NCBI RefSeq assembly: GCF_002210105.1
Contig: NZ_AQQU01000001.1
Span: 62,001 to 126,000 of the forward strand
Direction: 5' to 3'
DNA length: 64,000 bases
Origin: Oceanicola sp. 22II-s10i
GTDB lineage: Bacteria > Pseudomonadota > Alphaproteobacteria > Rhodobacterales > Rhodobacteraceae
The notes beneath the pieces were generated by a model. It worked only from the letters and a program-made list of their open reading frames with translations. It had not been told where the DNA came from and made no database searches. A program made the translations under genes and the position numbers. Position 1 is the first letter of the stretch. Each line of letters begins with the position of its first letter. Below, piece after piece: positions 30,005 through 59,010 of this stretch.

Positions 30005-31681
30005 TCAGAACAGCCCCTCGATCTGTCCGGCGTCGTTTAGCATGATCGCCTCGGCGGACGGAACCCGCGGCAGGCCCGGCATGGTCATGATTTCCCCGCA
30101 AATCACCACGATGAACCCGGCCCCCGCCGACAGCCGCACCTCGCGGATCGGCAGGTTGTGCCCGACGGGGGCGCCGCGCAGGTTCGGGTCGGTCGAAAAG
30201 GAATACTGCGTCTTGGCCATGCAGACCGGCAGGCCGCCATATCCTGCCTCTTCCCATGCCTTCAGCTGGTCGCGGATCTTCTTGTCCGCCATCACGTCCT
30301 CCGCGCGGTAGATCCGCTGCGCGATAGTCTCGATCTTCTTGAAGAGCGGCATGTCGTCCGGATAGAGCGGCGCGAACTGGCTGACGCCGCTCTCGGCGAT
30401 CTCGGCCACCCGGCGGGCGAGGTCCTCGATCCCGGCCGAACCTTCGGCCCAGTGGCGGCACAGGATCGCCTCGGCGCCCTGCTCTGCGACATAGGCCCTC
30501 ACGGCCTCGATCTCGGCCTCCGTGTCGCCGTGGAAATGGTTGATCCCCACGACCACCGGCACGCCGAACTGCTTGAGGTTCGCGATGTGCCGCCCGAGGT
30601 TCGGACAGCCCGCTTCGACCGCCTTGACGTTCTCGGCCCCCAGGTCGCCGCGCGCCACGCCGCCGTTCATCTTCATCGCGCGGACGGTCGCGACCAGCAC
30701 CACGCAGTCGGGCGCGAGGCCGGCCTTGCGGCACTTGATGTTCATGAACTTCTCGGCCCCGAGGTCCGCGCCGAAGCCCGCCTCGGTCACCACGAAATCC
30801 GCGCATTTCAGGGCGGTGGTGGTGGCGATGACGGAATTGCAGCCGTGCGCGATGTTGGCGAAGGGGCCGCCGTGGACGAAGGCCGGGTTGTTTTCCAGCG
30901 TCTGGACGAGGTTCGGCTGCATCGCGTCCTTCAGCAGCACCGTCATCGCGCCGTCGGCCTTGAGGTCGCGGCAGTAGACCGGCGTCCGGTCGCGGCGGTA
31001 GGCGACGATGATGTCGCCGAGGCGCTGCTGCAGGTCCCCGAGCGATGTGGCGAGGCAGAGGATCGCCATGACCTCGGACGCGACCGTGATGTCGAAGCCG
31101 GTCTGCCGGGGAAAGCCGTTGGACACGCCGCCGAGCGAGGTGACGATGTCGCGCAGCGCGCGGTCGTTCATGTCCATGACGCGCCGCCAGACCACGCGGC
31201 GTTCGTCGATCTGAAGCTCGTTGCCCCAGTAGATGTGGTTGTCGATCATCGCCGACAGCAGGTTGTGGGCGCTGGTGATCGCGTGGAAATCGCCGGTGAA
31301 GTGGAGGTTCATATCCTCCATCGGCACCACCTGCGCATAGCCGCCGCCCGCCGCCCCGCCCTTCATGCCGAAGCAGGGGCCGAGGCTGGCCTCGCGGATG
31401 CAGATCGCGGCCTTCTTGCCGATCCGGTTCAGCCCGTCGCCGAGGCCCACGGTGGTGGTCGTCTTGCCCTCGCCCGCGGGCGTCGGGTTGATCGCGGTGA
31501 CGAGGATCAGCTTGCCGTTCGGGCGGTCCTGCACGCTGTCGATGAAGCCCTGCCCGACCTTGGCCTTGTCGTGGCCGTAGGGCAGCAGCTGGTTCAGCGG
31601 AATGCCGAGTTTCGCACCGATCTCCTGAATGGGTTTCTTGTCCGCCTCGCGGGCGATCTCGATATCGGATTTGAAGCTCAT
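30005..31681 (-). CDS. fhs: Formate-tetrahydrofolate ligase
   Basis: Makes 10-formyl-THF from formate, THF and ATP. The 558 residues match the family. Visible sites are the nucleotide loop [18 protein letters not shown] near residue 67, [24 protein letters not shown] near 108-131, [17 protein letters not shown] near 198, and [16 protein letters not shown] near 302. First gene of a unit with chorismate mutase, a secreted protein and folD. With FolD it forms a formate-to-methylene-THF route, a common arrangement for C1 recycling in marine Rhodobacterales. Confidence 0.97.
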
Positions 31682-56180: not shown

Positions 56181-57545
<1,365 letters not shown>

Positions 57546-57563
57546 CACCCACCGGAAAAAATT

Positions 57564-57597
57564 GCGCCGGTGCAGGGCACCCCCCCTGCACCGGCGC
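57564..57597 (+). terminator. Rho-independent-type terminator after rimO
   Basis: A perfect 14-bp stem (arms GCGCCGGTGCAGGG and CCCTGCACCGGCGC) around a six-base loop lies 18 bases after the rimO stop. It is followed by TCTTGCTTCG, a weak T-rich tail. The stem is long enough to terminate plus-strand transcription. Confidence 0.85.
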
Positions 57598-57677
57598 TCT
57601 TGCTTCGACCCACGGACGTCCCTCTCGGCGCGGAGGCTCCCCAGTCCCGCACCACGCCCAAACCGGGTCCAGCAAAC

Positions 57678-57938
57678 TCAGCTGCGCATCATCGCCTCCA
57701 GCACGTCGCGGTTGCGACAGTAGTCGGGCGGGGCGGCAGCGGTGTGATGTTCGACCTGCCAGCCGGCGCAAGTTTCAGGGCGGGCGCAGTTGGCACAGCG
57801 CATCAGCGCGCCACGATAGGCCGCGACCCCGGCTTCGGAACCGTTGTCGGCGCGGACATCAACGCCCATGCGGTCGGCCATCCCGTTGAACAGGCGTCCC
57901 GCCCGGTCGAGGCGCTGGAAGTAGCTCAGGAATCCCAT
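57678..57938 (-). CDS. DUF6455 family four-cysteine protein (second copy)
   Basis: An 86-residue protein of the DUF6455 family. The core is MRCANCARPETCAGW near residues 46-60, a C-x2-C-x5-C array, with a fourth cysteine 16 residues later in PDYCRNRDVLEAM. The N-terminal half is helical (SYFQRLDRAGRLFNGMADRM). It starts at ATG 57938, 13 bases inside the upstream paralogue. The cysteine spacing suggests metal or Fe-S binding, but no binding has been shown. Both copies sit behind an FNR-type box. Confidence 0.85.
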   Translation of the reverse strand: MGFLSYFQRLDRAGRLFNGMADRMGVDVRADNGSEAGVAAYRGALMRCANCARPETCAGWQVEHHTAAAPPDYCRNRDVLEAMMRS

Positions 57939-58210
57939 TCGTCCTGCTCCGTGCTCAGGGTGGCAAACAACGCCTTGTTCTCGCAGCCCTGGGGCGCAGG
58001 GCGCGGACCGGCCGCGGCAAGTTCGCCCTCGGCCAGCCAGCGGCTGCAGTCCTCGGTGCACTGGCATCCCCGGCAGCGGGTGACGGTCGCGGCCCATTCC
58101 GCGTCGGCCAGCGCGCCGCGCTGGTGTGCGGCGTCGAGATCGACACCGGTCGCCCGCGCCATGCGCCGGACCAGTTGCAGATGTGTGCTGACGTCGCCAA
58201 GCGTGTTCAT
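57926..58210 (-). CDS. DUF6455 family four-cysteine protein (first copy)
   Basis: A 94-residue DUF6455 paralogue of the next gene. Core: TRCRGCQCTEDCSRWL near residues 44-59, C-x2-C-x5-C with one extra cysteine inside, and a fourth cysteine 20 residues later in PQGCENKALFAT. The N-terminal helix is QLVRRMARATGVDLDAAHQRG. ATG 58210 has GCAGGAGG upstream. It is the first gene after the FNR-type box, and a -10 candidate (TAGATC on the minus strand, 58242-58237) puts the box at about -41.5 from the predicted transcription start. Confidence 0.85.
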   Translation of the reverse strand: MNTLGDVSTHLQLVRRMARATGVDLDAAHQRGALADAEWAATVTRCRGCQCTEDCSRWLAEGELAAAGPRPAPQGCENKALFATLSTEQDEWDS

Positions 58211-58264
58211 CGCGCCCTCCTGCAGAGTTCGCCGATGATCTACGCCGCCCGAGTCGGGCGCGCC

Positions 58265-58278
58265 TTGATTTCGATCAA
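58265..58278. promoter_or_regulatory. FNR/FnrL-type box upstream of the DUF6455 pair
   Basis: TTGATTTCGATCAA matches the FNR/FnrL consensus TTGAT-N4-ATCAA at all ten fixed bases. On the minus strand the -10 candidate TAGATC (58242-58237) would place the start near 58230 and the box centre (58271.5) near -41.5, the standard position for class II activation by FNR/CRP-family proteins. It lies between the 3' end of the M48 protease gene (58282) and ATG 58210. Confidence 0.75.
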
Positions 58279-58281
58279 GCC

Positions 58282-59010
58282 TTACCCGGAGGCAAGCGCG
58301 CGGCGGACGGTGTCCATCCGGTTGGCGTTCGGCGGGTGCGTGCCGAGGAACCGGTCGCCGGGATCGGGGATGCGCGTGAAATAGAGCGCGCCCCGGATCG
58401 CGTCATAGCCCGCGGCCCGCGCGATCCGCGCACCGAGCGCGTCGGCCTCCAGCTCGTAATCCTTGGAATAGGTCCGCGCGCCGACCGACGCGCCGATCTG
58501 CGTCGCCATCTCGACCCCCGCGCCGCCCGCGCCCGCGATCGAGGCCAGAACGCCGAACACCTGCGCCCCCGCCGTCGCGTTGGTGCGCTGGCGGTTCAGG
58601 TGTGCCCGGATGTGATGCGCCGCCTCGTGCGACATGATGAAGGCCATCTCGTCCTCGTTCTGGACGTCGGCGATCAGCGGCAGGGTGAAGGCCAGCACCG
58701 GGCGACCCGATCCGTCGAGCGTCTGAAAGGCGTTCGACGGCTGGCCGGGCCGGTCGTCGACGACGATCAGGAAATCGCAGTTCAGGCCCGGCGACAGGCG
58801 GCGGCATTCGCCTTCGGCCACCGGCTCCACCGTGCGGACCACGTTGACGAAGCGGCGCGCCGCCGCCGACGCTTCGGCCTCGGTCATCTGGCCGCTGCTG
58901 TCGTAGGCCGCCGGGGACGGCGCCGGGCGCGGGGCCGGGCCGGGTGCGCCCGCCGCGCAGGCGGACAGCGCCGCCATTGCCAAAAGGGCAAACAGGGGTT
59001 TCATCGCCAT
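58282..59010 (-). CDS. M48 family metalloprotease, lipoprotein
   Basis: A 242-residue zinc protease anchored to the membrane. Its lipoprotein signal ends LSAC (lipidated Cys18), then a Pro/Ala-rich linker. The catalytic HEAAH sits near residues 128-132 (FIMSHEAAHHIRAHL) and the third zinc ligand is the Glu in YELEADALGARIARAAG near 182-200. The C terminus has the typical THPPNANRMDTVRR. Family members (BepA/LoiP-like) degrade or repair misfolded outer-membrane proteins. Role in this organism is inferred. Confidence 0.93.
   Translation of the reverse strand: MAMKPLFALLAMAALSACAAGAPGPAPRPAPSPAAYDSSGQMTEAEASAAARRFVNVVRTVEPVAEGECRRLSPGLNCDFLIVVDDRPGQPSNAFQTLDGSGRPVLAFTLPLIADVQNEDEMAFIMSHEAAHHIRAHLNRQRTNATAGAQVFGVLASIAGAGGAGVEMATQIGASVGARTYSKDYELEADALGARIARAAGYDAIRGALYFTRIPDPGDRFLGTHPPNANRMDTVRRALASG

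Follow-up and report, generated by a model that had tools for sequence, protein, structure and literature searches.

The stretch of DNA analysed here (64,000 nucleotides, referred to as the window) carries two small DUF6455 genes on its minus strand. Gene B (57926–58210) encodes 94 amino acids of the type that we call beta, with conserved cysteines C46, C49, C55 and C76 and an extra C51. Gene A (57678–57938) encodes 86 amino acids of the alpha type, with conserved C48, C51, C57 and C74. The start codon of gene A falls within the 3′ end of gene B, leading to an overlap of 13 bases (57926–57938, minus strand), and gene A ends at 57678. An AGGAGG stretch resembling a ribosome site precedes the start of gene B at 58210.

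Upstream of the pair, on the same strand, lies an FNR/FixK-type box, TTGATCGAAATCAA (58265–58278), which is conserved in relatives and matches TTGATNNNNATCAA exactly at all fixed bases. An M48 peptidase gene (58282–59010) ends with its stop codon 3 bases ahead of the box, which is followed immediately 3′ by GG (58263–58264, minus strand), the second G of which is nearly invariant among relatives. The −10-like hexamer TAGATC (58237–58242, minus strand) is found 22 bases 3′ of the box, its TA being conserved and its last base often C in the genus. If the T at 58242 is taken as −12, transcription is predicted to start at 58230 (minus strand) and the box is centred at −41.5. At the other end of the pair a 14-pair hairpin with a T run (57564–57597, minus strand), a terminator-like feature by consensus match only, likely marks the end of the operon, and a convergent rimO-like gene lies beyond it. 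A first-pass annotation of this DNA had described the overlapping genes, a C-x2-C-x5-C array with a fourth cysteine in both proteins, the exact box and its place near −41.5 as judged from TAGATC. The coordinates, the overlap, the cysteines and the box were all found as described, and our arithmetic on the predicted start position agrees.

The box in the window and in its own genome

The pattern TTGATNNNNATCAA is matched exactly at a single place in the 64 kb window, which is the box. The whole genome of 5.1 Mb holds 4 exact matches compared to 0 for the reversed pattern, and a search for the half-sites TTGAY and RTCAA returned 21 places compared to 3 for the reversed pattern. We inspected the surroundings of 12 of these 21 places, and five of the 12 boxes lie at or beside genes that could be named by profile: coxB and tldD (box L002), ctaD (L004, scoring under the cut-off because the gene is cut by the end of the stretch), hemN and fnrL (L184), and ccoN/usp with two boxes, of which L185 was the one scanned. 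Counterparts of hemN/fnrL, usp/ccoN, tldD/coxB and ctaD belong to the predicted FNR core regulon of alphaproteobacteria (PMC2908626). The gene faced by box L003 gave no family match in the profile scan.

Two observations on related sites were made along the way. Among the inspected places, three TTGACAGCTGTCAA palindromes occur within 1.3 kb on contig C2 of the same genome (about 106767–108033; L188–L190), and by eye a repB-like plasmid partition gene is nearby. They look like partition or replication sites and are almost certainly not FNR boxes. The window itself contains a second FNR-like site, TTGATGTTCATGAA, at 30735–30748 with one mismatch.

Conservation of the box among relatives

To describe conservation we counted mismatches over the 10 fixed bases of the box and regarded it as kept if at most two were changed. 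The Pfam family PF20056 (DUF6455) was detected in 24 of the 60 genomes of the near-relatives search, own genome included, and in 174 of 295 genomes of the family (294 genera). All 17 genomes of the genus that possess the genes have the box, 16 times exact and once with one mismatch, and the near-relatives search also gave 7 genomes from elsewhere in the family, each with a best match of 0–2 mismatches in the 450 bases upstream of the DUF6455 match (7/7). The box was likewise kept with up to two mismatches at 29 out of 29 further family loci, which are the best-scoring new loci of the profile search and not a random draw. Another 40 family loci, chosen by us from the places in the 295-genome survey and thus not random either (30 of them from lower in the ranking), all carry it (3 exact, 32 with one and 5 with two mismatches). 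Among public genomes the best 80 of 152 loci gave 80 out of 80, comprising 81 gene clusters that all have the box (12 exact, 52 with one and 17 with two mismatches). The genus, family and public-genome sets overlap (for example, L007 equals L086), so that these counts are not additive. The occurrence of the same box before DUF6455 genes of relatives had been named in advance as a check that could refute the regulatory reading, and the reading came through it.

Across relatives the fixed bases of the box are largely retained and the flanks variable. Where fixed bases are changed, the changes mostly take the form of TTGAC or GTCAA half-sites, and TGA and TCA are unaltered in 111 promoters, the clusters having been preselected for at most two mismatches. 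The reversed pattern was never better than 3 mismatches at the 81 public-genome clusters. As a further control we used 836 other predicted genes at 62 public loci: 33 match the box with at most two mismatches within 200 bases and 10 with at most one, while the reversed pattern matches 3 with at most two. Individual distances from box to gene may be off by some codons, as start codons were assigned by script. With this in mind, the DUF6455 pair of Dinoroseobacter shibae DFL 12 (G080; chromosome 2,781,771–2,782,372, minus strand) has a one-mismatch box that lies 53 bases before the first gene, and genome G273 has a two-mismatch box before DUF6455.

One of the public loci, L086 (JAFKDC010000028.1), is titled Enemella evansiae, an actinobacterium, and carries a DUF6455 locus of the Rhodobacteraceae type. 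It is the same as G023, a genome placed in the window's family by the genome search, and the title may be wrong.

DUF6455 outside the family and on plasmids

PF20056 is contained in 14 of 289 genomes drawn from the class, 11 of them outside the family. In five of these 11 (G354, G379, G406, G435 and G545) at least one match is preceded, at no more than about 450 bases, by a box that has at most one mismatch. In G379 the box precedes both matches; in G545 it is found only before the weaker match, which scores under the cut-off, and the better match is without a box. G515 and G505 have two-mismatch boxes, the match in G505 being under the family cut-off, and in G372, G440, G475 and G477 nothing better than three mismatches was present within about 450 bases (the match in G475 is also under the family cut-off). 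In three distant outside-family members (L152–L154) the cysteine domain appears by eye to be preceded by an extended N-terminal region that has a DLG-like motif; their boxes show 1, 2 and 1 mismatches and lie about 300–340 bases before the matched part.

Plasmid copies offer a view of the genes in other surroundings. In two of the four matches on Mesorhizobium plasmids, which are those we examined, DUF6455 lies between a usp and a CBS gene, in one of them together with mgtA, and close to fixJ and a PAS kinase (fixLJ). The M. ciceri plasmid in addition has a Crp/Fnr gene, pseudoazurin and nnrS downstream. Both loci have an exact box 51–52 bases before DUF6455, and the usp and CBS genes also have boxes with at most one mismatch. 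Exact boxes are likewise present at both examined Thioclava plasmid copies, out of five. A Pseudosulfitobacter plasmid copy (L181, CP069018.1) has no box before DUF6455; there the gene adjoins a VOC-family gene in an aromatic-degradation region, possibly a case of reuse under different control.

These loci bear on the simplest alternative, in which the box arose by chance or belongs to the 3′ end of M48, and oxygen does not control the DUF6455 genes at all. The box does follow the M48 stop codon closely, and as an M48 gene lies upstream in 55 of 62 loci synteny could carry the box sequence along. Yet the fixed bases hold where the flanks vary, and exact boxes stand before DUF6455 in Thioclava and Mesorhizobium, where M48 is not directly upstream, for which reason we rejected the box as a part of the M48 gene end. 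A chance origin was rejected on the reversed-pattern control and on the 33 matches among 836 other genes, and the alternative as a whole appears highly improbable to us. The recurrence of M48 upstream and of the rimO-like gene downstream (18 of 62 loci) looks like old synteny, and a function derived from these neighbours was rejected on that ground.

Promoter geometry

When the 81 public-genome clusters were aligned on the box, positions 23, 24 and 28 after it were C/T in 84%, A in 83% and T in 82%. This resembles a −10 element, at the offset for which the box centre would be −41.5. The A and the T are found together at that one offset in 64/80 public, 24/40 and 15/29 family and 7/17 genus loci, which increases to 74/80, 31/40, 27/29 and 8/17 if one base of variation to either side is allowed. 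The best alternative offset reached 7/80, 5/40, 3/29 and 4/17. In the genus of the window the T and A of the −10 element occur at 94% each, but where the final T of the hexamer would stand C is more frequent, TAGATC being an example; the full pattern is weak there for this reason. A generic sigma-70 scan of 57540–58400 found no promoter. As the −10-like pattern recurs at constant spacing from the box, the predicted class II geometry can be regarded as conserved.

The G two bases past the box is present in 79/80, 36/40, 29/29 and 17/17 loci of the same sets. In the own genome, GG also comes directly after three of the 11 other boxes (L182, L184 and L192), on one or the other strand, and the conserved G may therefore not be special to DUF6455.

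Candidate regulators

The genome of the window encodes FnrL (NF045989, 463 bits against a cut-off of 300) and a second FNR-like regulator (L163) without the N-terminal cysteines. FnrL was detected in 257 of the 295 family genomes, in 171 of 174 with DUF6455 compared to 86 of 121 without (Fisher p about 3e-12, kinship ignored). For the 260 good genomes the numbers are 155 of 156 and 74 of 104 (p about 1e-12, kinship again ignored); the two lists were compared by eye. The three genomes with DUF6455 in which FnrL was not detected are G143, G159 and G211, of which G159 is rated complete. A one-mismatch box is retained in G159 (L205) and G143 (L042).

FNR, FixK and Dnr have one common target sequence (PMC2908626), and the box by itself does not name its regulator for this reason. 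The conserved box with its −10 spacing, the presence of FnrL and its co-occurrence with DUF6455 nevertheless make control of the pair by an FNR/FixK-type regulator at the class II position well supported at the level of sequence. The regulator of the Mesorhizobium genes must be different from FnrL and, to judge from the neighbourhood, would be FixK-like.

It has to be asked whether FnrL is the main regulator in the window's lineage. Control could instead be mainly of the Dnr/NnrR or FixK type, responding to NO or through FixL, with the proteins serving denitrification or NO tolerance. The shared target sequence, the second regulator L163, the DUF6455 genomes without detected FnrL, and nnrS and pseudoazurin close by in M. 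ciceri are in agreement with such a scheme. The strong co-occurrence of DUF6455 with FnrL (kinship ignored) and the near-consensus boxes at core targets of the FnrL type in the own genome argue against it, and we regard it as unlikely. FnrL is our preferred regulator for the pair.

Protein family, cysteines and predicted fold

Both window proteins are full-length members of DUF6455 (PF20056), with 75.1 and 89.8 bits against a cut-off of 23.7. It is the only Pfam family above its cut-off for the two proteins, and neither matched NCBIfam or PHROGs. We describe the family by a pattern of our own, C-x2-C-x5-C followed after 16–23 residues by a fourth cysteine and then x-N. This pattern is kept in the two window proteins and in 76 of 80 HMM-found matches, which in places include several genes per genome. 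The failures are L029, L156, L157 and L158; L156 and L157 are under the Pfam cut-off, and L158 has H for N. The invariant cysteines in our alignment A4 are no independent evidence, because its proteins were chosen by that same pattern.

The 81 public-genome clusters contain one gene in 32, two in 21 and three in 28 cases. By eye the paralogues could be sorted into alpha, beta and gamma, commonly in that order, which a rough pattern recovered at 22 of 80 loci; in the window beta precedes alpha. Proteins A and B share 30% identity over 74 residues. This organization of tandem operons with one, two or three paralogues suggests that mixed complexes may be formed.

AlphaFold2 gave confident five-helix models for B (pLDDT 94.1, pTM 0.85) and A (pLDDT 92.2, pTM 0.82). 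Placed by sequence position, C46 of B would end helix 3, C49 lie in the turn, C55 early in helix 4 and C76 just before helix 5. With Foldseek neither A nor B had a PDB match below E 7, which is not proof of a new fold. For B, none of 14 re-aligned PDB chains reached a Z of 2 or more, and a viral structure library gave no match below E 2. We gave up deriving a function from these fold searches. By sequence, the highest-ranking PDB entry is a zinc finger that aligns with the first three cysteines (E 0.0095), followed by thioredoxin reductases from E 0.02; together with the empty NCBIfam and PHROGs results this led us to give up a function from sequence matches as well.

Potential metal binding and function

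Since nearly every examined relative with the genes keeps the box, the genes very probably belong to the low-oxygen response, as far as sequence conservation can tell. A hint towards their function arises from the cysteines, whose potential to bind a metal is suggested by their conservation and by spacing shared with known proteins. The [4Fe-4S] ligands of E. coli FNR are Cys-20, 23, 29 and 122 (PMC4601167). The N-terminal domain of RseC, with a conserved CX2CX5C, holds an oxygen-sensitive [4Fe-4S] cluster after reconstitution (PMC11729352). As the spacing in DUF6455 equals that of the FNR ligands and of the RseC motif, we favour by analogy the idea that these proteins are oxygen-labile Fe-S effectors.

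We propose the following mechanism, to which we assign a probability of about 0.55 as a whole. When oxygen falls, FnrL, or a FixK- or Dnr-type relative in other lineages, would bind the box centred at −41.5 and, from this class II position, activate RNA polymerase. Genes B and A, which overlap, would be co-transcribed up to the hairpin at 57564–57597, and the products would be small, probably cytosolic five-helix proteins. Their four conserved cysteines would most likely hold a [4Fe-4S] cluster that is probably labile in air or to NO. Because of this probable lability the proteins could serve as effectors or adaptors that are labile to oxygen or NO, and the paralogues may combine into mixed complexes. 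Such a role would also be the simplest to assume for small proteins frequently encoded as two or three co-expressed paralogues.

The same low-oxygen control could apply to proteins with a structural zinc, which as small adaptors would bind a partner or a nucleic acid and sense nothing. Four-cysteine zinc sites are common, the best PDB sequence match is to a zinc finger, and the fold is small and confidently predicted. The motif C-x2-C-x5-C is moreover not exclusive to [4Fe-4S] clusters, as it is also met in papers on zinc and [2Fe-2S] proteins. What speaks for iron–sulfur instead is the ligand spacing of FNR and the RseC motif, and the expected expression at low oxygen, where Fe-S clusters survive. 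We consider the zinc reading possible, though not probable.

It is more doubtful that the proteins deal with iron, haem or Fe-S clusters, be it as a carrier or scaffold for clusters or as a reserve of iron. Such a role would fit the cysteine array and FNR control, and hemN is another target of the box in the own genome. At the examined loci, however, no genes for Fe-S or haem assembly stand near DUF6455; the neighbours are M48 and rimO-like genes or, in Mesorhizobium, fixLJ, usp and CBS, and they indicate no pathway. We also found no similarity in sequence or fold to known carriers or scaffolds. Of the first-pass proposal that oxygen-dependent control fits a role in Fe-S or haem handling, the part on FNR/FixK-type class II control is well supported by conservation and the presence of FnrL, whereas the handling role found no direct support.

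Going beyond the preferred mechanism, DUF6455 might be an overlooked class of small effectors, distinct in fold, with a [4Fe-4S] cluster that is labile to oxygen or NO. The family would rank among the most consistent FNR/FixK targets in alphaproteobacteria and relay an oxygen or NO signal post-transcriptionally through complexes of two or three paralogues (alpha, beta and gamma) that are expressed together. We offer this as a speculation and regard it as unlikely.

Within the searched literature a single paper names DUF6455, in a table that lists the genes of Azospirillum on which ethylene has an effect. Two FnrL studies in R. capsulatus and R. sphaeroides report hypothetical proteins among the bound and activated targets (PMC4634722, PMC4263372), and the FnrL regulon of D. 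shibae is given as 69 transcription units (PMC5398030). Some of these targets may be DUF6455 genes, so that published tables may already hold this regulation without the name of the family. The pair would be a new regulon member, and its mode of control is already known in kind. FNR regulons have so far been described chiefly by genes of respiration, haem and photosynthesis; as practically all of the examined relatives in the family keep the box before DUF6455, a low-oxygen function seems to be missing from this picture. The claim can be checked quickly, as D. shibae has DUF6455 genes and both fnrL and dnr mutants and expression data are published for it.

Comparison with known systems

Neither FNR nor WhiB was matched as a homologous family in sequence or fold (Pfam, Foldseek against the PDB); the resemblances are described as analogies. 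With the [4Fe-4S] site of E. coli FNR, DUF6455 has in common C-x2-C-x5-C and one distant cysteine; it differs in that its fourth cysteine is much nearer and that we found no DNA-binding domain. The N-terminal domain of RseC has the same three-cysteine spacing, but RseC is a membrane protein of the SoxR-reducing system, and homology was not detected. WhiB-like proteins of actinomycetes have the exact C-x2-C-x5-C spacing with a cysteine order different from that of DUF6455. They are also small and cytosolic with four conserved cysteines, which hold a [4Fe-4S] cluster, and they differ from DUF6455 in giving no fold match. The closest agreement is on the side of regulation. The locus is like the FnrL regulon of Rhodobacteraceae in its box sequence, its predicted −41.5 position, the presence of FnrL and the company of core targets in the genome (hemN, fnrL, usp/ccoN, tldD/coxB and ctaD), and it is set apart from that regulon by its target family, DUF6455, and by the conserved G two bases past the box.
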